Shown: piece after piece, positions 4,279 to 14,216 of the stretch
How the letters are laid out: the number at the start of each line of letters is the position of its first letter
Position numbering within the stretch: the first letter of the stretch is position 1
Assembly (NCBI GenBank): GCA_033344895.1
Contig: JAWPMN010000001.1
Span: 3,232,001 to 3,296,000, forward strand
Direction of reading: 5' to 3'
DNA: 64,000 bases
Origin: Alphaproteobacteria bacterium
GTDB taxonomy: Bacteria > Pseudomonadota > Alphaproteobacteria > UBA8366 > Aestuariispiraceae
Made by a program: the position numbers and the translations under genes
The notes under the pieces: generated by a model
Database searches by the model: none
What the model saw: the letters and a program-made list of their open reading frames with translations, nothing else
Told to the model about the DNA's origin: nothing

Positions 4279-5472
4279 ATGAAGAAAACGTTGCTGGGTG
4301 CCGCACTGGGCGCCGTAATGATGGCGGCGCCGGCTTTCGGTGCCAGCCATGGGGAGCCGGTGAAGATCGGCTTCGTGACCACGCTGACGACACCGGCCGC
4401 GGTGATCGGCAACGACATGAAGAACGCCTTCGATCTCGCGCTGGAGCATATCGGCGGCGAGATGGGCGGCCGCAAGGTCGAAGTCATCTATGAAGATGAC
4501 GGTTTCAAGCCGGAAATCGGCAAGCAGGCTGCCGATAAGCTGGTGAAGCAGGACAAGGTCGACTTCGTCACCGGGTTCATCTGGTCGCACGTTCTGCTGG
4601 CGTCGTCCAAGTCTGTCCTGGACAGCGGCACGTTCCTGATCAGCGCCAATGCGGGCCCGTCCCAGCTGGCCGGCCGGGGCTGCCATGAGAATTTCTTCTC
4701 CGTTTCCTGGCAGAATGACCAGACGCCGATGGCGCTGGGTGAAGCCTTGAATGCCAATGGCGTCAATTCCGTCTACATCATGGCGCCGAACTATGCCGCC
4801 GGTAAGGACATGGTCGCCGGCGTTGAGCGCACCTTCAAAGGCGAAATCAAGGGCAAGGACCTGACGAAATGGGGTGCCGACGCGCAGCTCGATTTCTCGG
4901 CGGAACTGGCCAAGGCGAAGGCTTCGGGCGCCGAAGCGATCTGGGTCTTCTACCCGGGCAAGGCGGGTGGTGCCTTCATTCAGCAGTACACCCAGGCCGG
5001 TCTGCAGGACACCCTGCCGCTCTACTCGGTCTTCACGGTGGACGCCCTTTCGCTGCCGCGTCTGAAGGACGCCGGTCTGACGGGCGTGCTGGGCAGCCGC
5101 GCGACGCAGCATTGGTCGCCGGATCTGGACAATGACGCGAACAAGAAGTTCGTGGGCGATTTCCTGGCGAAGCACGGTACCTACCCGTCCTTCTACGCCC
5201 AGCAGGCCTACGATGCGATGATGCTGATCAAGTCGGCGGTTGATGCCGTTGGCGGCGATCTGTCCGACAAGGACGCGGTGCGTGCGGCGATGGCCAAGGC
5301 CGATTTCGCCTCGACCCGCGGCAGCTTCAAGTTCGGTAACAACCACTTCCCGATCCAGAACTTCTACCTGCGTGAAGCGGTTGAAGATTCGGAAGGGCGC
5401 TGGACGACGAAGGTCGTTTCGACGGTGTACGAGGATCACCAGGATCCGCACGCCGCCGATTGCGGTATGTAA
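4279..5472 (+). CDS. ABC transporter substrate-binding protein, LivJ type
   Basis: This 397-residue periplasmic binding protein belongs to the leucine/aromatic-acid binding family (peripla_BP_6). A Sec signal peptide, MKKTLLGAALGAVMMAAPAF, is followed by mature sequence VKIGFVTTLTTPAAVIGNDM. The ATG at 4279 is preferred over ATG 4273 because GGGAGG at 4266-4271 is correctly spaced for it, and the signal peptide begins there. It precedes two permeases and two ATPases, so it captures the substrate for the importer. The adjacent gentisate genes suggest an aromatic acid or a related carboxylate rather than branched-chain amino acids; this is contextual inference. Confidence 0.9.
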   Translation: MKKTLLGAALGAVMMAAPAFGASHGEPVKIGFVTTLTTPAAVIGNDMKNAFDLALEHIGGEMGGRKVEVIYEDDGFKPEIGKQAADKLVKQDKVDFVTGFIWSHVLLASSKSVLDSGTFLISANAGPSQLAGRGCHENFFSVSWQNDQTPMALGEALNANGVNSVYIMAPNYAAGKDMVAGVERTFKGEIKGKDLTKWGADAQLDFSAELAKAKASGAEAIWVFYPGKAGGAFIQQYTQAGLQDTLPLYSVFTVDALSLPRLKDAGLTGVLGSRATQHWSPDLDNDANKKFVGDFLAKHGTYPSFYAQQAYDAMMLIKSAVDAVGGDLSDKDAVRAAMAKADFASTRGSFKFGNNHFPIQNFYLREAVEDSEGRWTTKVVSTVYEDHQDPHAADCGM

Positions 5473-5489
5473 TCGCGCAGAAGTTTCCG

Positions 5490-5526
5490 GCGGGGCGGGC
5501 CATGGACGGTCCGCCCCGCTGTTTTT
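5490..5526 (+). terminator. intergenic hairpin with T-tract after the substrate-binding protein gene
   Basis: GCGGGGCGG (5490-5498) pairs perfectly with CCGCCCCGC (5511-5519) across a 12-base loop and is followed by TGTTTTT. It looks like a Rho-independent terminator. It lies between the binding-protein gene and the permease gene, which would let the binding protein be made in excess of the membrane components. Confidence 0.75.
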
Positions 5527-5636
5527 CCCCACAAGAAGTCGGGCACGATCCGTGGGGACGGTTTTTTTGGGATACGGGATAGTGCCTCGACCGGTCCGGC
5601 TCACGCGGGCCGGATCGATGGGGCGGGGATGAGTGA

Positions 5637-6560
5637 ATGGATACGGCGCTCCTCATCACGCAGTTGCTCAACGGTTTGCAACTCGGCGTGTTGTTGTTCC
5701 TGCTGGCGGCGGGACTGACCCTGATCTTCGGGATCATGGACTTCATCAATCTGGCGCATGGCTCCTTCTACATGGTCGGCGCCTATATCTGCGGGACCCT
5801 GGTCGCGTTGCTGGACAGCTTCGTTCTGGGGGTGCTTCTGGCGATTCCGCTGACCCTGGCAGTGGGCTACGTCGCGGAACTGATCGTCGCGCGAACGCTT
5901 TATGCTCGCGACCACCTCGACCATGTTCTGGCGACCTTCGGCCTGATCCTCATCTTCGACACGGTGGTGCATCTGTTCTGGGGCGCCGAGGGCATGGCGA
6001 TTCCGCTGCCCGACTGGCTGAACGGACAGATCGCCCTCAGCGAGACAATTCTGGTCCCGACCTACCGGGTTGCCATCATTCTTGTTGGCCTTGCGGTCGC
6101 CCTCGGCCTTTACGTTTTGGTGACCCGCACGCGGATCGGGATGCTGATCCGGGCAGGGGCATCCAACCGCACCATGGTTCAGGCGCTCGGCGTCGACATC
6201 AAGCGGCTGTTCTCGCTGGTCTTCGCGGCCGGCGCAGCCATCGCCGGCCTGGCCGGGATGATGGTCTCCCCAATCACCGAGGCATCGATCGGGATGGGCA
6301 ATGACATCATCATCGTCGCCTTCGTCGTGATCATCATCGGCGGCATCGGTTCCGTTAAAGGGGCCTTCGTCGGTGCGCTGATCGTCGGCATGATCGAAAC
6401 GATGGGCCGATCCTATCTGGACCAGCTGATGAAACTCTTCATGTCGGATCAGAATGCCGAAACCGCGGCACCTGCGGTTTCCGCCATGCTGATCTACATC
6501 CTGATGGCGGTGATTCTGGCGGTGCGCCCGCAGGGTCTGTTCCCGCCCCGCGTACGTTGA
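5637..6560 (+). CDS. livH: branched-chain-type ABC transporter permease, LivH family
   Basis: This 307-residue integral membrane protein has about eight hydrophobic segments. It carries the LivH hallmark sequences GLTLIFGIMDFINLAHGSFY at about residues 25-44 and IRAGASNRTMVQALGVDIKR near 170, the cytoplasmic loop that contacts the ATPases. It forms the inner-membrane channel with the LivM-like partner. The ATG at 5637 follows a G-rich stretch. Its stop overlaps the region just before the next permease, so the two are co-translated. Confidence 0.92.
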   Translation: MDTALLITQLLNGLQLGVLLFLLAAGLTLIFGIMDFINLAHGSFYMVGAYICGTLVALLDSFVLGVLLAIPLTLAVGYVAELIVARTLYARDHLDHVLATFGLILIFDTVVHLFWGAEGMAIPLPDWLNGQIALSETILVPTYRVAIILVGLAVALGLYVLVTRTRIGMLIRAGASNRTMVQALGVDIKRLFSLVFAAGAAIAGLAGMMVSPITEASIGMGNDIIIVAFVVIIIGGIGSVKGAFVGALIVGMIETMGRSYLDQLMKLFMSDQNAETAAPAVSAMLIYILMAVILAVRPQGLFPPRVR

Positions 6561-6583
6561 GCGGAAGCGAAAGGACGACAACG

Positions 6584-7558
6584 ATGAACGCTTCCGACAT
6601 TCTCACCCCCAAGGGTCTGATCGCGGTTCTGATCGTGGTGCTGCTGGGTGTCATGCCCATCCTCACGAACATCACGGACCAGGCCTTCTACCTTGATATC
6701 GCCACCCGAATTCTGATCCTCGCGATCGCCGCGGTCAGCCTGAACCTGATCCTCGGCTATGGCGGGATGGTCAGCTTCGGTCATGCGGCCTTCATCGGGA
6801 TCGGCGCCTATGCCGTCGGTATTCCGATCTACTACGATCTGTATTCGGGCTGGCTGCACTTCCCGCTGGCAATCGCCGTAAGCGCCCTCTATGCGCTGAT
6901 CACCGGCGCGATCAGCCTGCGCACGAAGGGCGTGCACTTCATCATGATCACCATGGCCTTCTCGCAGATGGTCTTCTTCCTGTTCATCTCTCTGGAGGAG
7001 TATGGCGGAGACGACGGTCTGCTGATCTGGTCCGACAGCGAATTCGTCGATGGCCTGGATGTCGACGATCCGACGACCTTCTATTACCTGTGCTTCATTT
7101 CGCTGATGGGGGTGCTCTACCTGGTGCATCGCATCGTCAATTCGCGCTTCGGCCGGGTCATTCGGGGCTCGATGTCGAACGACAAGCGGATGAAGGCGCT
7201 GGGCTATCCGACCTACGGCTACAAGCTGACGGCCTATGTCATCTCCGGTGCGATCTGCGGTTACGCGGGCGCGCTGATGGGGAACTTCACCAATTTCATC
7301 AGCCCGGAGATGATGGGATGGACCCGGTCCGGTGAGTTGATCTTCATGGTCGTTCTCGGCGGCTCTGGAAGCGTCATGGGCCCGATCTATGGCGTGCTGT
7401 CCTTCCTGCTTCTGGAGGAGTTCCTGCCCGACATCATGGATCTGTTCGCCGATGGCGCCGGTATCTACTGGCACCTGCCATTCGGCATTCTGCTTGTGCT
7501 GATCGTTCTGTTCGTGCGCGGCGGGATCAACGGGCTTCTCGACAGGTGGAACCGATAA
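6584..7558 (+). CDS. livM: branched-chain-type ABC transporter permease, LivM family
   Basis: This 324-residue permease has the LivM motifs LNLILGYGGMVSFGHAAFIG near residue 52 and a coupling-loop segment RGSMSNDKRMKALGYPTYGY near 196. The frame also opens at a TTG at 6557, but ATG 6584 is preceded by AAAGGAC at good spacing and is the better start. The stop TAA overlaps the next gene's ATG (TAATG at 7556-7560). It pairs with the LivH-like permease. Confidence 0.92.
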   Translation: MNASDILTPKGLIAVLIVVLLGVMPILTNITDQAFYLDIATRILILAIAAVSLNLILGYGGMVSFGHAAFIGIGAYAVGIPIYYDLYSGWLHFPLAIAVSALYALITGAISLRTKGVHFIMITMAFSQMVFFLFISLEEYGGDDGLLIWSDSEFVDGLDVDDPTTFYYLCFISLMGVLYLVHRIVNSRFGRVIRGSMSNDKRMKALGYPTYGYKLTAYVISGAICGYAGALMGNFTNFISPEMMGWTRSGELIFMVVLGGSGSVMGPIYGVLSFLLLEEFLPDIMDLFADGAGIYWHLPFGILLVLIVLFVRGGINGLLDRWNR

Positions 7559-8309: not shown

Positions 8310-9011
8310 ATGTTGAGCGTTTCGGGACTGAAGACTTATTACGGCAACAGCCAGGCCCTGTTCGGCATGTCGCTGGAGGTGAAGGCTGGCGAGGTCGCCA
8401 CGCTGATGGGCCGCAACGGCATGGGCAAGACGACCACTGTCCATTCCATCATGGGGATCGTGCCGGCGAATTCCGGGGACATCCATTTTGAAGGGGAGGC
8501 CATTCGCGGGCTCGCCCCTTACGCCGTCGCGCGGCGGGGGATCGGCCTGGTTCCGGAAGGGCGCCAGATTTTCCCCAACCTGACGGCCCATGAAAACCTG
8601 ATCGCCACCGCCGCGAACTGGGGCGGCCGATCCGATCCGTGGACGGCGGAACGTGTCTACGACCTTTTCCCGGGCCTCGCGGAGCGGCGCGGCAGCATGG
8701 GGAACCTGCTGTCCGGCGGGGAACAGCAGATGCTGGCGGTCGGTCGGGCGCTGATGACCAATCCGAAAATGCTGATTCTCGACGAGGCGACGGAAGGACT
8801 TGCGCCGCTGATCCGTGACGAGATCTGGCGCAGCCTGGAAGCCTTGAAGTCGGAAGGCCTCTCCATTCTTGTGATCGACAAGAATGTGAAGGACCTCGCC
8901 CGGATCGCCGACCGGCATCACATCGTCGAAAAGGGCAAGGTTGTCTGGACCGGCAACAGCAACGCGCTGCTGGCCGACGAGGAACTGATGCATCGCTATA
9001 TGGGCGTGTAA
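8310..9011 (+). CDS. livF: ABC transporter ATP-binding protein, LivF family
   Basis: This 233-residue ATPase has Walker A GRNGMGKTT (residues 34-42), signature LLSGGEQQMLAVGRAL, Walker B MLILDEATEGL and a final switch region LVIDKNVKDLARI, where the usual histidine is replaced by lysine as in many LivF proteins. It is the last gene of the importer operon, two bases after livG, and is followed by a strong terminator. Confidence 0.93.
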   Translation: MLSVSGLKTYYGNSQALFGMSLEVKAGEVATLMGRNGMGKTTTVHSIMGIVPANSGDIHFEGEAIRGLAPYAVARRGIGLVPEGRQIFPNLTAHENLIATAANWGGRSDPWTAERVYDLFPGLAERRGSMGNLLSGGEQQMLAVGRALMTNPKMLILDEATEGLAPLIRDEIWRSLEALKSEGLSILVIDKNVKDLARIADRHHIVEKGKVVWTGNSNALLADEELMHRYMGV

Positions 9012-9051
9012 GCCCCAATCATTGAGTTGAGGGCGAAAGCCCTGCCGCCTC

Positions 9052-9092
9052 ACCAAGACCCCCTCTCCATCAGGAGAGGGGGCTTGGTCTTT
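9052..9092 (+). terminator. Rho-independent terminator of the liv-type operon
   Basis: A near-perfect hairpin follows livF by 40 bases. ACCAAG plus CCCCCTCTCC pairs with GGAGAGGGGG plus CTTGGT around an ATCA loop, with one bulged A, and is followed by CTTT. Confidence 0.75.
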
Positions 9093-9213
9093 ATGTATCG
9101 ATTCAGCGGGGTGCGAGAATCCCTCAGGACCGGCGTCTATGTCGTTGTTCCGGAATCAAAAGTTGCAATGACCGTTATTGCTCGTCGACCGGCGACGGGT
9201 GCGACAGGCGGCC

Positions 9214-9241
9214 TTGCCAGCGCTGCTGCGGCGGCTATAGT
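9214..9241 (+). promoter_or_regulatory. candidate promoter of the cysS-cimA leader transcript
   Basis: TTGCCA (9214-9219), a 16-base spacer and TATAGT (9236-9241) match the sigma70 pattern and have the same spacing as the candidate promoter at 4101-4128. Transcription would begin near 9248, about 35 bases before the leader-peptide ATG. The stretch 9093-9213 shows no gene that I can support. Confidence 0.5.
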
Positions 9242-9282
9242 GCGGGCAACGAACTCGGCATCAATCCGGCGGATCGGGCGGC

Positions 9283-9354
9283 ATGGCCTTTACGATCGAC
9301 ATCATCGGGATTATCTGCGGCTGTCGCGCGCGCGGCGGCCGTTGGCGGTGCTGA
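9283..9354 (+). CDS. 23-residue Ile/Cys-rich leader peptide before cysS-cimA
   Basis: An ATG at 9283 opens a 23-codon frame ending at TGA 9352-9354. Its product is MAFTIDIIGIICGC followed by an Arg/Gly-rich tail that ends in Cys. Five of the first eleven codons are Ile and three Cys codons follow (positions 12, 14 and 23). A promoter lies just upstream, and a terminator hairpin lies between the peptide and cysS. The downstream genes encode cysteinyl-tRNA synthetase and citramalate synthase, an isoleucine-pathway enzyme. This is the arrangement expected of ribosome-mediated attenuation sensing charged tRNA-Cys and/or tRNA-Ile. The ribosome binding site is weak (GGATCGGGCGG). The alternative fold that would prevent termination was not resolved by eye. 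Confidence 0.55.
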   Translation: MAFTIDIIGIICGCRARGGRWRC

Positions 9355-9391
9355 TCCGGAACCCCGGACATAGAACAGCGACACCATCGAC

Positions 9392-9424
9392 CCCGCGGCA
9401 GGCACGACCCTACCGCGGGTTTTC
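9392..9424 (+). terminator. attenuator-type terminator upstream of cysS
   Basis: CCCGCGG (9392-9398) and CCGCGGG (9413-9419) form a stem followed by TTTTC and a second T-rich run. It lies 37 bases after the leader-peptide stop and 34 bases before the cysS ATG, so it would end transcripts before cysS. A small hairpin, TCCGG-AACC-CCGGA (9355-9368), directly follows the leader stop codon. Confidence 0.55.
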
Positions 9425-9457
9425 AGTTTTGCAGCAGATTGAGAGCGGATACCGGCC

Positions 9458-10825
9458 ATGGACCTGATGATCTACGATACCAGCAGACGACAGAAGATTT
9501 CCTTCGAACCCCGTGTGCCGGGGAAGGTCGGTCTCTATGTCTGTGGCCCGACGGTCTATGACCGGATTCATATCGGCAATGCCCGTCCCATTGTCGTCTT
9601 CGATGTCTTTGCACGCCTGTTGCGGACGCTCTATGACGAGGTGACTTATGTCCGAAACATCACCGATATCGACGACAAGATTAACGCCCGCGCGAAGGAG
9701 CGCGGCATCGATATCCGCGACCTGACGGAAACGACGGTCGCGCGGTTCCGCGAAGACTGCGCGGAACTGAAATGCGCGCCGCCGGATGTTGAACCGCGCG
9801 CAACCGAGACAATTCCGGAAATGGTCGCCCATATCGAGCGTCTGATCGAAAACGGACATGCCTATGCGCTGGACGACGGTCATGTGCTGTTCCACGTTCC
9901 GTCCTGGCCGGATTACGGCAGGTTTGCCAACAAGGACCGCGACGAACAGATATCCGGCGCCCGGGTCGACGTCGCCAGTTACAAGAAGGATCCGGCGGAT
10001 TTCGTGCTGTGGAAACCATCCGATGCCGAGACCCCAGGCTGGCCAAGCCCCTGGTGTGAGAAGGGGCGTCCCGGCTGGCATATCGAATGTTCCGCCATGT
10101 CCGAGAAGTATCTCGGCCCGGATTTCGACATCCATGGCGGGGGGATCGATCTGGTCTTCCCGCACCATCAGAACGAAATCGCCCAGAGCTGCTGCGCCCA
10201 TCCGCATGATGCGCAGCAGGACCGCTTTGCCCGCCACTGGATGCATAACGGCTATCTGATGAGTGAAGGCGAGAAGATGTCGAAGAGTCTCGGCAACTTC
10301 TACACGGTCGCTGAACTTCTGGAGGAGTTTCCCGGCGAGGCGTTGCGCCTGGTGATTCTGCAGGCCCACTATCGTCAGCCGCTGGATTTCTCGAAGGACA
10401 AATGCCGGGAAGCCAAGGCGGCGCTGGACCGACTGTACCGCCTGAAGCAGACGGCGCTGGAAACCGGGGCACGTCCGGCGCGGGACGATGCCGTGCATGC
10501 GGCGCTGATGGACGACATGAATACACCGCTTGCCCTGGCAAAGCTGCATGAACTGACCGATACGGTCACGGATGCGTCGGGGGCGGCGCGTTTCCTGGGG
10601 GCGCTTGATCTGCTGGGCATCGCTGTGGGCGATCCGGAAACCTGGTTCAAGGGCGGGTCGGACGGTCCGTCGGCCGAGGAAGTCGAAGGCCTGATCGAAG
10701 CCAGAAAGGCCGCCAAGGCATCGAAGGACTTCGCCGAGGCGGACCGGATCCGTGACGATCTGAAGGAACGCGGCGTCGTGCTGGAAGACAAGCCCGGCGG
10801 CGTCACCGAATGGCGGCGAGCATGA
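9458..10825 (+). CDS. cysS: cysteinyl-tRNA synthetase
   Basis: This 455-residue class I aminoacyl-tRNA synthetase charges tRNA-Cys with cysteine in the cytoplasm. It has the zinc cysteine in [19 protein letters not shown] (C29), the HIGH motif as HIGN (38-41), ITDIDDKI near 68, the zinc-binding CSAMS and HH segments around 210-240, and KMSKS at 273-277. Length is normal for the family. The ATG at 9458 follows a leader peptide and terminator that probably control it. It is followed after 44 bases by cimA, an order common in Rhodospirillales-like genomes. Confidence 0.97.
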
Positions 10826-10869: not shown

Positions 10870-12459
10870 ATGAGCGAGCGCATCTATCTGTTCGACACGA
10901 CCCTGCGGGACGGGGCGCAGACCCAGGGGGTGGATTTTTCCGTCGCCGACAAGGTCGCGATCGCCCAGGCGCTGGATCGTATCGGCATCGACTATGTCGA
11001 AGGCGGTTGGCCGGGGGCCAATCCGACGGATGATGCCTTCTTCACCGACCCGCCGGATCTTCACACCGCCAAACTGGTCGCCTTCGGCATGACGCGACGG
11101 CCCGGACGGTCGGCGGAGAATGACCCCGGCCTCGCGCCCCTTCTGAATTCGAAGGCCCAGGCGATGTGCCTGGTCGGCAAGAGCTGGGATTTCCATGTCG
11201 ATGTCGCGCTGGAAATTCCGCATGAGGAAAACGTCGCGATGATCGCCGATTCGATCCGCCTTGCCGGACAGCGCAAGTCGGAGGCGATGTACGATGCCGA
11301 GCATTTCTTCGACGGCTGGAAGGCCAACAGGGACTTCACCCTGTCCTGTGTCATGGCGGCATATGAGGCCGGGGCACGCTGGATCGTGCTGTGTGACACC
11401 AATGGCGGAACCCTGCCGCATGAAGTCGACGCCATCGTGCGTGAGGTGGCCGAGCATATCCCCGGTGACCGCCTTGGCATTCACGCCCATAACGACACGG
11501 AAAACGCCGTCGCCAATTCCCTGGCTGCGATCCGCGCTGGAGTGCGTCAGGTTCAGGGCACGATCAACGGGTTGGGGGAGCGCTGCGGCAATGCCAATAT
11601 CTGCTCGTTGATCCCGTCCCTGATGTTGAAGATGGGGTTCGAGACCGGCGTTTCGCATGACGGATTGAAGGAACTGACCCATCTGTCGCGCCTGCTGGAC
11701 GAACGGCTGGAACGCCCGTCCAATCGTCATCAGGCCTATGTCGGGGAGGCGGCCTTTACCCACAAGGGCGGGCTTCATGTCTCTGCCGTCGCCAAGGATC
11801 CTAGAACCTACGAACACATCCCCCCGGAGACGGTTGGAAACCGCCGGCACATTGTGGTCTCCGATCAGGCCGGACGGTCCAACGTTCTGGCCCGGCTGGA
11901 GGAAAGCGGCATCGAGATGGAAGAAGCCGCGCTGCGCCGCCTGTTGGAGGATGTGAAGGACCGGGAGTTCCAGGGCTATGCCTATGACGGGGCCGAGGCC
12001 AGTTTCGAACTGCTGGCGCATCACGCCAAGGGCGATGTTCCGGACTATTTCGACATCAGCCGCTTCCGTGTCATGGACGAACGTCGCCACAACGCGGTCG
12101 GTAAGCTGATCACCGAATCCGAGGCGACGGTGCAGGTCGAAGTCCAGGGCCGCCAGGTCATGCGTGTCGCCATGGGCAACGGGCCGGTCAATGCGCTTGA
12201 TACGGCTCTGCGGGAAGCGGTGCTGGAAATCTATCCCGACCTGAAGGACATGCAGCTTGTCGACTACAAGGTCCGCATCTTGCCGCCGCCCAAAGGGTCG
12301 ACCGGGACGGATGCCGTGACGCGCGTGACCATCGAGAGCGAGGACGAACAGGGACACCGCTGGACCACGGTCGGCGTCTCGGCGAACATTATCGACGCCT
12401 CCGTCATCGCCCTCTACGATGCCTATGCCTACAAACTGATGCGGGACGGCATTCGATGA
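10870..12459 (+). CDS. cimA: (R)-citramalate synthase
   Basis: This 529-residue enzyme of the 2-isopropylmalate/citramalate synthase family condenses acetyl-CoA with pyruvate to citramalate, the threonine-independent entry to isoleucine. It has the catalytic FDTTLRDGAQTQG near the N-terminus, the metal site HAHNDTENAVANS near residue 206, GTINGLGERCGNANI near 230, HKGGLHVSAV near 297 and a C-terminal regulatory LeuA dimer domain. The arrangement and length fit the CimA branch rather than LeuA or homocitrate synthase, where a TINGIGERAGN-type motif is usual. It shares a transcript with cysS and overlaps the next gene by four bases. Confidence 0.9.
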   Translation: MSERIYLFDTTLRDGAQTQGVDFSVADKVAIAQALDRIGIDYVEGGWPGANPTDDAFFTDPPDLHTAKLVAFGMTRRPGRSAENDPGLAPLLNSKAQAMCLVGKSWDFHVDVALEIPHEENVAMIADSIRLAGQRKSEAMYDAEHFFDGWKANRDFTLSCVMAAYEAGARWIVLCDTNGGTLPHEVDAIVREVAEHIPGDRLGIHAHNDTENAVANSLAAIRAGVRQVQGTINGLGERCGNANICSLIPSLMLKMGFETGVSHDGLKELTHLSRLLDERLERPSNRHQAYVGEAAFTHKGGLHVSAVAKDPRTYEHIPPETVGNRRHIVVSDQAGRSNVLARLEESGIEMEEAALRRLLEDVKDREFQGYAYDGAEASFELLAHHAKGDVPDYFDISRFRVMDERRHNAVGKLITESEATVQVEVQGRQVMRVAMGNGPVNALDTALREAVLEIYPDLKDMQLVDYKVRILPPPKGSTGTDAVTRVTIESEDEQGHRWTTVGVSANIIDASVIALYDAYAYKLMRDGIR

Positions 12460-13127
12460 AGCTTCCGGGCCGGAACGAACGTCAGGCACTCGGCCGGCGC
12501 ATAGTCGACACCTGTCTGGCCATGAACGCTTCGGGCATCAACCAAGGCAAGTCCGGCAATGTCTCCGCGCGCTTCGGCGACGCGATGCTGGTGACGCCGT
12601 CCGGTGTTTCCTATGACGCGCTGAAGCCGATGGATGTTGTCCTGCTGGGGCTCGACGGCACACCGGTCGAGGACGGGCAGCTTCTGCCGTCCAGCGAATG
12701 GCGCATGCATGCCGACATCTACCGTGCCCGTCCGGAGGCGCAGGCTGTGGTCCATGCCCATCCGACCTTCTGCACGGCGCTGGCCTGCCAGCGGATCGGC
12801 ATCCCGGCCTTCCACTATATGGTCGCGGTTGCGGGCGGGACGGACATCCGCTGTTCCGACTATGCCACCTTCGGCACGCAGGCGCTTTCCGATACGATGG
12901 TCGCCGCACTGCGCGACCGGAAGGCCTGCATCCTGGCGAACCACGGCATGATCTGTTTCGAAACGACGCTTGAGAAGGCCCTGGGCCTTGCCATTGAGGT
13001 CGAAGGTCTGGCCCGCCAGTATCACCACGCACGGCAACTCGGCGAGCCGGTAATCCTGAGCGATGTCGAGATGGCCGAGGTGCTGGAGAAGTTCAAGACA
13101 TACGGCAAGCAGCCGGGGAAGGCATAG
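12456..13127 (+). CDS. class II aldolase/adducin family protein, probable 5-methylthioribulose-1-phosphate / 5-deoxyribulose-1-phosphate aldolase
   Basis: This 223-residue zinc aldolase of the fuculose-phosphate family carries SGNVSAR (33-39), SSEWRMH with the acid/base glutamate E81, the zinc histidines in HAHPTF (H100, H102) and a third in ANHGM (H163). It lies four bases before mtnA, which makes 5-methylthioribulose-1-phosphate. It is therefore probably the aldolase of the DHAP shunt, splitting the product to dihydroxyacetone phosphate and an aldehyde. That reaction is established for R. rubrum and some E. coli homologues. The MtnB dehydratase is in the same superfamily and remains the alternative; no mtnC/mtnD genes are visible to support it. 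Confidence 0.8.
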   Translation: MKLPGRNERQALGRRIVDTCLAMNASGINQGKSGNVSARFGDAMLVTPSGVSYDALKPMDVVLLGLDGTPVEDGQLLPSSEWRMHADIYRARPEAQAVVHAHPTFCTALACQRIGIPAFHYMVAVAGGTDIRCSDYATFGTQALSDTMVAALRDRKACILANHGMICFETTLEKALGLAIEVEGLARQYHHARQLGEPVILSDVEMAEVLEKFKTYGKQPGKA

Positions 13128-13130
13128 GCG

Positions 13131-14216
13131 ATGGAAATCGACGGCAAACCCTATCGCACCATCTGGGTCGAGGAACCGCGCAAATCGGTCGGGGTGATCG
13201 ACCAGACAAAGTTGCCGCATCGGTTCGAGACGCTGACCCTGACCTCTCTGGAAGAGGCGGCGGTGGCGATCGAGGACATGATCGTGCGCGGGGCGCCGCT
13301 GATCGGGGCGACGGCGGCCTATGGTTTCTGTCTGGGCCTGGAAGCGGATTCCAGCGATGCCGGTGTGCAGTCGATCTACGACCGGCTGTACCGGACGCGG
13401 CCGACGGCGGTCAATCTGCGCTGGGCCCTGGATGAGATGCGCGCCCTGCTGGACAACCGTGCGCCGGAAGAGCGCGCGGCCCTGGCCTGGGAGCGGGCGG
13501 CGGAGATCTGCGATTCCGACGTCGAGATCTGCAAGGCAATCGGCCGCAACGGGCTGGAAATCATTGAGAAGATCGCGGCTGAGAAAGCCGAGGGCGAGGC
13601 CGTCAACGTCCTGACCCACTGCAATGCCGGCTGGCTGGCGACCGTCGATTGGGGTACGGCGACCGCGCCGATCTATATGGCCTACGAGAAGGGAATCAAG
13701 GTTCATGTCTGGGTCGATGAGACGCGCCCCCGCAACCAGGGTGCCAGTCTGACCGCCTGGGAACTGGGGCGGCACGGCGTCGACCATACGCTGATCGCGG
13801 ACAATGTCGGCGGGCATCTGATGCAGCACGGGCTGGTCGATCTGTGCATCGTCGGCACCGACCGGACGACGGCCAGCGGCGATGTTTGCAACAAGATCGG
13901 CACCTATCTGAAAGCATTGGCGGCAAAGGACAACGGCGTGCCCTTCTATGTGGCGCTGCCGTCGACGACGATCGACTGGACCGTCCATGACGGCGTCCGT
14001 GAAATCCCGATTGAACAGCGCAAGGGCGAGGAACTGACCCGCATCGCCGGGCGGATGGAAAACGGTGATGTCGTCACCGTCGACATCGCGCCGGAGGGCG
14101 TCACCGCGCGTAACGATGCCTTCGATGTGACCCCGGCACGGCTGGTCACCGGCCTGATCACCGAGCGTGGTACCTGCGCGGCCAGCGAGGACGGTCTGAA
14201 GTCGCTGTTCGACTGA
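13131..14216 (+). CDS. mtnA: S-methyl-5-thioribose-1-phosphate isomerase
   Basis: This 361-residue member of the eIF2B-related family converts methylthioribose-1-phosphate (and often 5-deoxyribose-1-phosphate) to the ribulose form. Signature elements are [15 protein letters not shown] near residue 50, the catalytic cysteine in [10 protein letters not shown] (C164), [17 protein letters not shown] near 197 and the catalytic aspartate in VGTDR (D244). It is co-transcribed with the aldolase upstream. mtnP, which supplies its substrate, lies convergently 1.9 kb downstream. A short GACT tandem run marks its stop codon. Confidence 0.95.

Follow-up and report, generated by a model that had tools for sequence, protein, structure and literature searches.

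Attenuators whose leader peptides answer to more than one amino acid are classical in Escherichia coli, where the thr leader serves threonine and isoleucine (Ile) and the ilvGMEDA leader serves leucine, valine and isoleucine. In alphaproteobacteria, trpL/rnTrpL of Sinorhizobium meliloti was described as a leader-peptide attenuator with a leaderless small frame (PMC10117765). In actinobacterial cys operons, leaders with runs of cysteine (Cys) codons were reported before sulphur genes, with no conserved terminator hairpin (PMC1262725). The closest described element is uORFC-8-2, reported with 145 examples from Rhodobacterales; it lies upstream of cysS and has tandem Cys codons, alternative stems and a 3' U run (Brewer et al. 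2021, PMC8632094). In the same paper, ribosome-mediated cysteine attenuation was proposed for this element, which was stated to be exclusive to Rhodobacterales (PMC8632094); isoleucine and citramalate occurred 0 times in its main text. Here we analysed a stretch of 64,000 nucleotides (nt) from an alphaproteobacterium of the Aestuariispiraceae (assembly GCA_033344895.1, contig JAWPMN010000001.1, positions 3,232,001 to 3,296,000), referred to below as the window, in which a short leader frame rich in Ile and Cys codons preceded the genes cysS and cimA. This leader is probably a ribosome-mediated attenuator of the cysS-cimA operon that senses whether tRNA-Ile and tRNA-Cys are charged, a proposal that rests on sequence comparison and folding models.

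Three parts of an attenuator were present in the window: an intrinsic terminator before the first gene, a short frame directly ahead of the operon in which codons of the amino acids concerned are plentiful, and an antiterminator and a terminator that would exclude each other, since the predicted 2:3 and 3:4 helices share CCCGCGG (Table 1). A sequence-only reading of this DNA had described the promoter, the 23-codon frame with its five Ile and three Cys codons, the hairpin behind the stop and the terminator before cysS, and each was found again. Only one promoter-like site was detected within 8900-9700 against 0.3 expected from shuffles. Directly behind the hairpin CCCGCGGCAGG/CCTACCGCGGG came TTTTCAGTTTT, whose TTTT (9420-9423) was separated by 34 nt from the cysS ATG (9458). 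The identities proposed for cysS and the citramalate synthase gene also held, both with scores above curated cut-offs. At the gathering threshold, Rfam gave 0 matches in the window (one weak match to the leader reached 15.1 bits against a threshold of 70) and none over the leaders in a scan of 15 loci. A known Rfam element at the leader was ruled out on this ground, and a T-box or riboswitch was set aside.

Table 1. Features of the leader locus and its neighbourhood in the window; helices and regions are folding predictions.
Feature	Position	Strand	Remarks
ATP-binding cassette transporter ATPase gene, LivF/UrtE kind	8310-9011		upstream neighbour of the leader
Terminator-like site behind the LivF/UrtE-kind gene	9059-9082		
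Sigma-70-type promoter, TTGCCA-N16-TATAGT	9214-9241	+	TTGCCA 9214-9219, TATAGT 9236-9241, spacer 16 nt
Region 1, leader ribosome-binding stretch and start codon	9274-9288	+	pairs with 9344-9359 in the minimum-energy fold without ribosome
Leader peptide frame MAFTIDIIGIICGCRARGGRWRC	9283-9354	+	ATG 9283, TGA 9352-9354; 23 amino acids, 5 Ile and 3 Cys
Control zone, Ile10 Ile11 Cys12 Gly13 Cys14	9310-9324	+	predicted: a ribosome stalled here favours the antiterminator
Region 2, antiterminator 5' arm	9331-9353	+	blocks CGCGG, GG, CG, TGG, GCTG
Small hairpin TCCGGAACCCCGGA	9355-9368	+	TCCGG-AACC-CCGGA, directly 3' of the leader stop; apical part of the antiterminator
Region 3, antiterminator 3' arm	9376-9398	+	CCCGCGG common to region 3 and terminator
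Intrinsic terminator (region 3:4), hairpin and TTTT run	9392-9423	+	hairpin 9392-9419
cysS, cysteinyl-tRNA synthetase	9458-10825	+	TIGR00435, score above curated cut-off
cimA, citramalate synthase	10870-12459	+	TIGR00977, score above curated cut-off; opening enzyme of isoleucine synthesis by the pyruvate route
Class II aldolase gene and mtnA	12456-14216	+	aldolase overlaps the cimA stop (ATGA); mtnA starts 4 nt behind the aldolase

According to the proposed mechanism, when Ile and Cys are plentiful the ribosome would pass the Ile and Cys codons to the stop and cover or reshape region 2, so that region 3 would be free and the CCCGCGG/CCGCGGG terminator would form before cysS. If either charged tRNA were short, the ribosome would pause at Ile10-Ile11-Cys12 (or at Cys14), region 2 would pair with region 3, the terminator would be pre-empted, and RNA polymerase would read into cysS and cimA. 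The logic would be that of an OR gate for shortage of either amino acid. We infer that the frame is translated, that ribosomes stall in it, that termination occurs there in the cell and that the leader responds to each of the two amino acids.

Conservation was scored by a strict rule (an ATG frame of 8-40 codons at most 350 nt upstream of cysS, with at least five Ile+Cys in 10 residues and at least two of each) and by a loose rule (at least four Ile+Cys in 10 residues), with expected counts taken from dinucleotide shuffles. Within the window's family (f1, 14 genomes), an Ile/Cys-rich frame was found before cysS in 11 genomes (L001-L006, L009, L010, L012, L013 and L015, where L001 is the locus in the window), including 6/6 of the window's genus (L001-L006). 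The strict rule was passed by 9 of the 14 against 0.16 expected, with L004 (six Ile, only one Cys) and L010 failing it. This count bears on the possibility of a chance frame in GC-rich DNA: short frames are common, and the fold of the whole leader was by itself not exceptional (z -1.51; 11/200 shuffles folded equally well or better), but the excess over the shuffled expectation and the recurrence of such frames across the class made this explanation extremely unlikely, and it was rejected on the grounds of shuffles and conservation.

The amino-acid type of the peptide was kept and its sequence varied (MAFTIDIIGIICGC, MTVFCIIIDIIICGC, MSPTAIIIISPCRIICGCRCC, MKSICIICCIIPC, MKTVICIICRKIIR). The promoter upstream of the leader, TTGC(C/A)A...TATAGTGC, was also kept in L001-L006, L009 and L013. 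The terminator hairpin was retained in L002 (with TTTT) and L003 (with TTT), and in L004-L006 it was retained without a good T run. Among 80 named loci, similar frames occurred in Roseovarius (MTGTAIIICCCIIR), Marivivens (MKSNAIIICCIITC), Bradyrhizobium (MNGHLEICSICREIIS), Rhizobium and Ensifer (MKTVICIICRKIIR), Cohaesibacter (MKTVFAHLCCIIGQIIIH) and others. Moreover, under the loose rule the leader was found in 28/30 loci of family f26, these being the best-scoring 30 loci out of 58 genomes with a match; the two loci without it were L162, where cimA was present, and L170, where cimA was elsewhere in the genome. Family f26 (G064), taken as Rhodobacterales from the likeness of its leaders to named Rhodobacterales records, shares only the class with f1. 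Thus, the Ile/Cys leader before cysS reaches distant alphaproteobacteria, namely Rhodobacterales, Rhizobium, Ensifer and Bradyrhizobium. The sequence-only reading had proposed a comparison with relatives as one test, and the outcome was in its favour: peptide type, promoter and hairpin were kept in the genus, and Ile+Cys leaders recurred class-wide before cysS-cimA.

The codons of the leader follow the operon behind it: Ile and Cys codons before cysS-cimA, Ile codons and no Cys before stand-alone cimA of family f13, and Cys codons and no Ile before some stand-alone cysS genes of the Hyphomonas family. Under the strict rule, an Ile+Cys leader preceded cysS with cimA downstream in 33/41 Rhodobacterales-type loci (0.14 expected) and in 4/30 other loci (0.10 expected), and it preceded cysS without cimA in 0/82 loci (0.67 expected), where 'without cimA' means none within the stretch of 1.4-6 kilobases (kb) examined. 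Two loci, L101 and L108, had been moved out of this last group since their cimA lay about 3.0-3.1 kb behind cysS; with them it would read 2/84. In Rhizobium and Ensifer, cysS and cimA shared strand and contig, with cimA 2.5-3.1 kb downstream. The strict counts left out L147, which duplicates L152, as well as every locus lacking 150 nt of upstream sequence. Loci of the no-cimA group were also left out if less than 1400 nt followed cysS, and among these was L052, which had a Cys-rich frame. Likewise, L086 and L166 had an Ile+Cys leader and were not counted, their contigs ending 586 and 423 nt after cysS.

Where the two genes stood apart, the vocabulary was different. In family f13, an Ile leader without Cys preceded stand-alone cimA in 26/30 loci under the strict rule against 0.05 expected (MNPAHSIIQGLIISG, MALAWIIIKGIIIRG) and in 30/30 under a looser one; the link to this family was a Parvibaculaceae record (L037), whose genome agrees with G207 in the position of cimA and carries a cysS identical to that of G207. 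Such leaders (L191, L200-L228) often ended in LIISG or IIRG, and many then carried a hairpin-like pair GCCGCCGCCG...CGG(T/C)GGC. To look beyond f13, 18 cimA loci were examined (in L196-L198 cimA was behind cysS), and a short Ile-rich frame free of Cys was found only in L190 and L191. Both belong to f13, L190 through a place identical to that of L212, so that cimA does not in general have an Ile leader. Only a minority of cysS genes with no cimA in the stretch examined had a Cys-only leader, with 5/30 loci in the Hyphomonas family (MFVRAFSPCCCACCCR) and 4/28 in f13 under the strict rule. Most of the 30 Hyphomonas-family loci had no leader, and the leader of L238, for which no CimA was found, was mixed (2 Ile, 4 Cys). 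A CimA search of ten genomes of this family gave only distant matches (29-31% identity) in nine, probably LeuA, and none at E 1e-40 in the remaining one. Stand-alone cysS in f13 was also often preceded by short frames that were poor in Ile and carried CCR-type Cys clusters (L121, L259-L265, L275-L276, L279-L281; MTCRCCRKNTTESPA, MTRRTTCCRTS...), and they are possible Cys leaders.

We also chose frames on one amino acid and counted the other, which avoided selection on both; L101 and L108 were counted here as cysS-cimA loci. Ile-picked frames were obtained at 51/87 cysS-cimA loci and at 28/30 f13 cimA loci, and Cys was present in 51/51 of the former versus 0/28 of the latter. Cys-picked frames were obtained at 36/87 loci with cimA and 29/137 without it, and at least two Ile were present in 32/36 versus 5/29. 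It is the natural comparison of Ile-picked frames from which dual-signal sensing gained most; the sequence-only reading had noted that leader codons matching both downstream genes would be unusual. These figures also bear on a Cys-only attenuator, in which tRNA-Cys charging alone would matter and the Ile codons would be incidental or spacing. A Cys-only mechanism was indeed proposed in print for the Rhodobacterales motif uORFC-8-2 (PMC8632094), and the first downstream gene is cysS. On the other hand, Ile codons were at least as frequent as Cys codons (157 versus 115 in 39 Rhodobacterales-type leaders, 57 versus 40 in 11 family f1 leaders), they accompanied Cys mainly where cimA followed, and in f13 an Ile leader without Cys stood before cimA alone. 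We therefore regard Cys-only sensing as quite unlikely. Another alternative is that the peptide itself is functional, as a metal- or redox-binding Cys peptide, or that the leader RNA acts in trans like rnTrpL, with the attenuator-like appearance being secondary. The trp attenuator RNA and peptide of S. meliloti were called dual-function (PMC10117765), which lends this idea a precedent. However, it was the amino-acid type rather than the sequence that was kept, and the 28 Ile-picked cimA leaders of f13 contained no Cys at all, which made such a function very unlikely to be the main explanation.

The antiterminator, which the sequence-only reading had left unresolved, could be drawn for the window: CGCGG (9331-9335) would pair with CCGCG (9393-9397), GG (9337-9338) with CC, CG with CG, TGG (9343-9345) with CCA (9384-9386), and GCTG (9350-9353) with CAGC (9376-9379), the post-stop hairpin forming the cap. 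For the dependence on ribosome position, we placed a ribosome at each codon in turn and folded the RNA downstream of it as far as the end of region 3, as snapshots before region 4 was made. The predicted probability that region 3 was paired upstream was 1.00, 0.99, 0.87, 0.62 and 0.79 at codons 10-14, compared with 0.22-0.61 for codon 15 and those after it up to the stop, and with 0.32 when no ribosome was present. Pairing was high at Ile10, Ile11 and Cys12, and therefore the sensitive zone would include codons of the two amino acids. Codons 10-12 differed from the late codons by a contrast of 0.63 in the window, compared with a mean of 0.28 in 150 randomised leaders (synonymous codons and shuffled spacer), of which 4 matched it; the same contrast for L004 was matched by 2/150. 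When the RNA was folded to equilibrium up to the hairpin end, the leaders of L004-L006 lost the hairpin mainly at Ile12 and the next codon. Thus, a choice of structure by ribosome position is a prediction that holds for the window in the snapshot before region 4 and, at equilibrium, only for L004-L006. The antiterminator accordingly stood as a drawable structure predicted to respond to a ribosome at the Ile/Cys codons in the snapshot, with no switch in the window at equilibrium.

A number of results weigh against dual-signal attenuation as proposed here. At equilibrium, the terminator of the window won at every ribosome position (0.81-0.99), and therefore the switch must be kinetic. In the snapshots, a ribosome at the start codon (0.92) or at Gly9 (0.90) likewise gave strong pairing of region 3, the values were low at Ile5, Ile7 and Ile8 (0.37-0.46), which fall outside the sensitive zone, and the randomised leaders already averaged 0.79 at codons 10-12. 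Unlike classical attenuators, L003-L006 favoured the antiterminator in the snapshot without a ribosome (0.77-1.00), and L003 at equilibrium lost the hairpin at all positions up to codon 12 as well as without a ribosome. When members of the window's genus were compared, the 2:3 arms gave no cognate-specific pairing except in L003. The hairpin of L004-L006 lacks a good U run, and of the terminator-like sites found in 8/11 family f1 leaders (1.2 expected) some were weak, with shuffle frequencies of 0.40 in L012 and 0.23 in L013. No leader was found in three of the 14 family f1 genomes (L007, L008 and L011), 26/30 of the cysS-cimA loci outside both the Rhodobacterales type and family f1 failed the strict rule, and a looser rule also passed six loci without cimA (L028, L069, L128, L130, L144 and L145). 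Finally, the sequences compared are related, and all counts describe a pattern over a few lineages, f13 being one clade, rather than independent trials. Frame conservation, codon make-up, the match of codons to operons, the alternative pairings and the predicted effect of ribosome position were computed on the sequences themselves, and together they supported the attenuator interpretation of the sequence-only reading.

The output of the switch was approached through 39 Rhodobacterales-type leaders, taken where the leader was found first; their regions were delimited with an anchor pattern (GCGGG, then CCCGC/TCCGC/CCCGG) that was selected with the sequences already in view. Their Ile codons were ATT in 87/157 cases, compared with 149/690 in cysS. 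Two helices covaried, the last one lying over the cysS ribosome-binding stretch. Namely, region 1 at the frame start paired with region 2b behind the stop (cognate duplexes on average -8.1 versus about -6.0 kcal/mol for swapped partners; 0/20000 permutations), with a reversed control that was weaker rather than null (z -2.3, 73/5000) and a null frame-middle control (z +0.85). The pairing of region 3 with region 4 was likewise cognate-specific (0/5000 permutations; z +0.28 for the reversed control). In 30/39 leaders, region 4 ended at most 8 nt from the assigned cysS start, where it spanned the Shine-Dalgarno stretch. Region 2a, GCGGGC, faced GCCCGC of region 3, a pairing not separable from its control (2/5000 permutations versus 26/5000 reversed). 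In the folding model, stalling 3-5 codons before the stop raised 2a:3 pairing to 0.58-0.63, compared with 0.18 at the stop and 0.28 without a ribosome, whereas the Shine-Dalgarno stretch paired less with region 3 (0.12-0.15, down from 0.30-0.31). With moderate confidence, the Rhodobacterales-type leaders can be read as the same sensor with a translational output; this reading leans neither on the 2a:3 pairing nor on an opening of the Shine-Dalgarno stretch upon stalling.

It could be asked if the window works in the same way, with unchanged sensing and the last helix hiding the cysS ribosome-binding site. The placement of region 4 near the cysS start and the specificity of region 3:4 speak for such an output, as do terminator-like sites at chance level in the Rhodobacterales-type leaders (5/39 versus 4.7 expected). 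However, the hairpin of the window has a U run and ends at least 34 nt before the cysS start, clear of it; the predicted openness of the Shine-Dalgarno stretch in Rhodobacterales barely shifted with ribosome position (0.35-0.41); and a 3' U run was reported for the Rhodobacterales motif (PMC8632094). Translational control thus seems an unlikely replacement for attenuation of transcription in the window. In a Roseovarius locus (L063), the Rfam element PYLIS_3 (pyrrolysine insertion, mttB) was detected at 1435-1534 on the minus strand with 44.3 bits against a threshold of 38.

Taking the groups together, we lean towards a modular and rewirable attenuator across alphaproteobacteria, in which the codon vocabulary would follow the genes behind: joined cysS-cimA would be placed under an Ile+Cys OR gate over two pathways, and when the genes are apart an Ile leader could persist before cimA and a Cys leader before cysS. 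The output would differ by lineage, being a terminator in the window's genus and cover of the cysS ribosome-binding stretch in Rhodobacterales. The class would thereby offer a natural experiment on how a leader follows the content of its operon, with three gene arrangements and three codon vocabularies in one class of bacteria.

The operon probably extends beyond cimA, since the aldolase gene overlaps the cimA stop and mtnA follows closely. The product of mtnA belongs to methylthioadenosine salvage, a sulphur pathway, and an attenuated operon cysS-cimA-aldolase-mtnA may therefore tie this salvage in. Among 12 family stretches, the order cimA-aldolase-mtnA was also seen in L293, L294 and L295 and, with gaps, in L296, L298 and L301; L297 had the aldolase alone, and five others had neither gene. 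The interval between cysS and cimA of a Rhizobium locus (L093, about 4358-6750) contained four same-strand frames: three coded for small proteins that resemble one another and have a GGCQCGA motif, and the fourth was hydrolase-like.

Comparison with the known systems places the element as follows. The actinobacterial cys leaders are alike in having Cys-codon leader peptides before sulphur genes and differ, as described, in having Cys runs only, in another phylum and before other genes (PMC1262725). In many Rhodobacterales-type loci (L061-L181), a TA-rich -10-like site was seen by eye shortly before the leader ATG, which suggests leaderless leader mRNAs; this resembles the leaderless frame of S. 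meliloti trpL, which differs by sensing a single amino acid (Trp) before a biosynthetic gene, with no synthetase (PMC10117765). Our Rhodobacterales-type leaders very probably are the uORFC-8-2 element, with the same short Cys-codon frame before cysS and alternative stems. In comparison to that paper (PMC8632094), the leaders studied here add Ile codons, the cimA partner, further alphaproteobacterial groups and two helices, of which one is at the leader start codon and the other covers the cysS ribosome-binding stretch. The window itself has an AUG frame upstream of cysS but Cys-Gly-Cys instead of tandem Cys, and it lies outside the published limit to Rhodobacterales, its family having only the class in common with f26. 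In the literature searched, with subscription papers outside its scope and some sources available in part, no Ile/Cys leader, cimA leader or correspondence of codons to operons was found. Our proposal would thus extend the published cysteine-only reading, adding an isoleucine signal for citramalate-dependent isoleucine synthesis.

The leaders of E. coli thr and ilvGMEDA are alike in that one leader carries codons of several amino acids tied to its operon, with OR logic. They differ in that their amino acids belong to connected pathways, whereas the Ile and Cys pathways are separate and are joined here via the shared cysS-cimA operon. If the proposal is true, attenuation would join a tRNA synthetase to a biosynthetic enzyme, each serving another amino acid. 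The principle is classical and the Cys-only part in Rhodobacterales is already in print, so that no new category is involved; what is new here is the part played by isoleucine, the connection to cimA, the occurrence outside Rhodobacterales and the correspondence between codons and operons.

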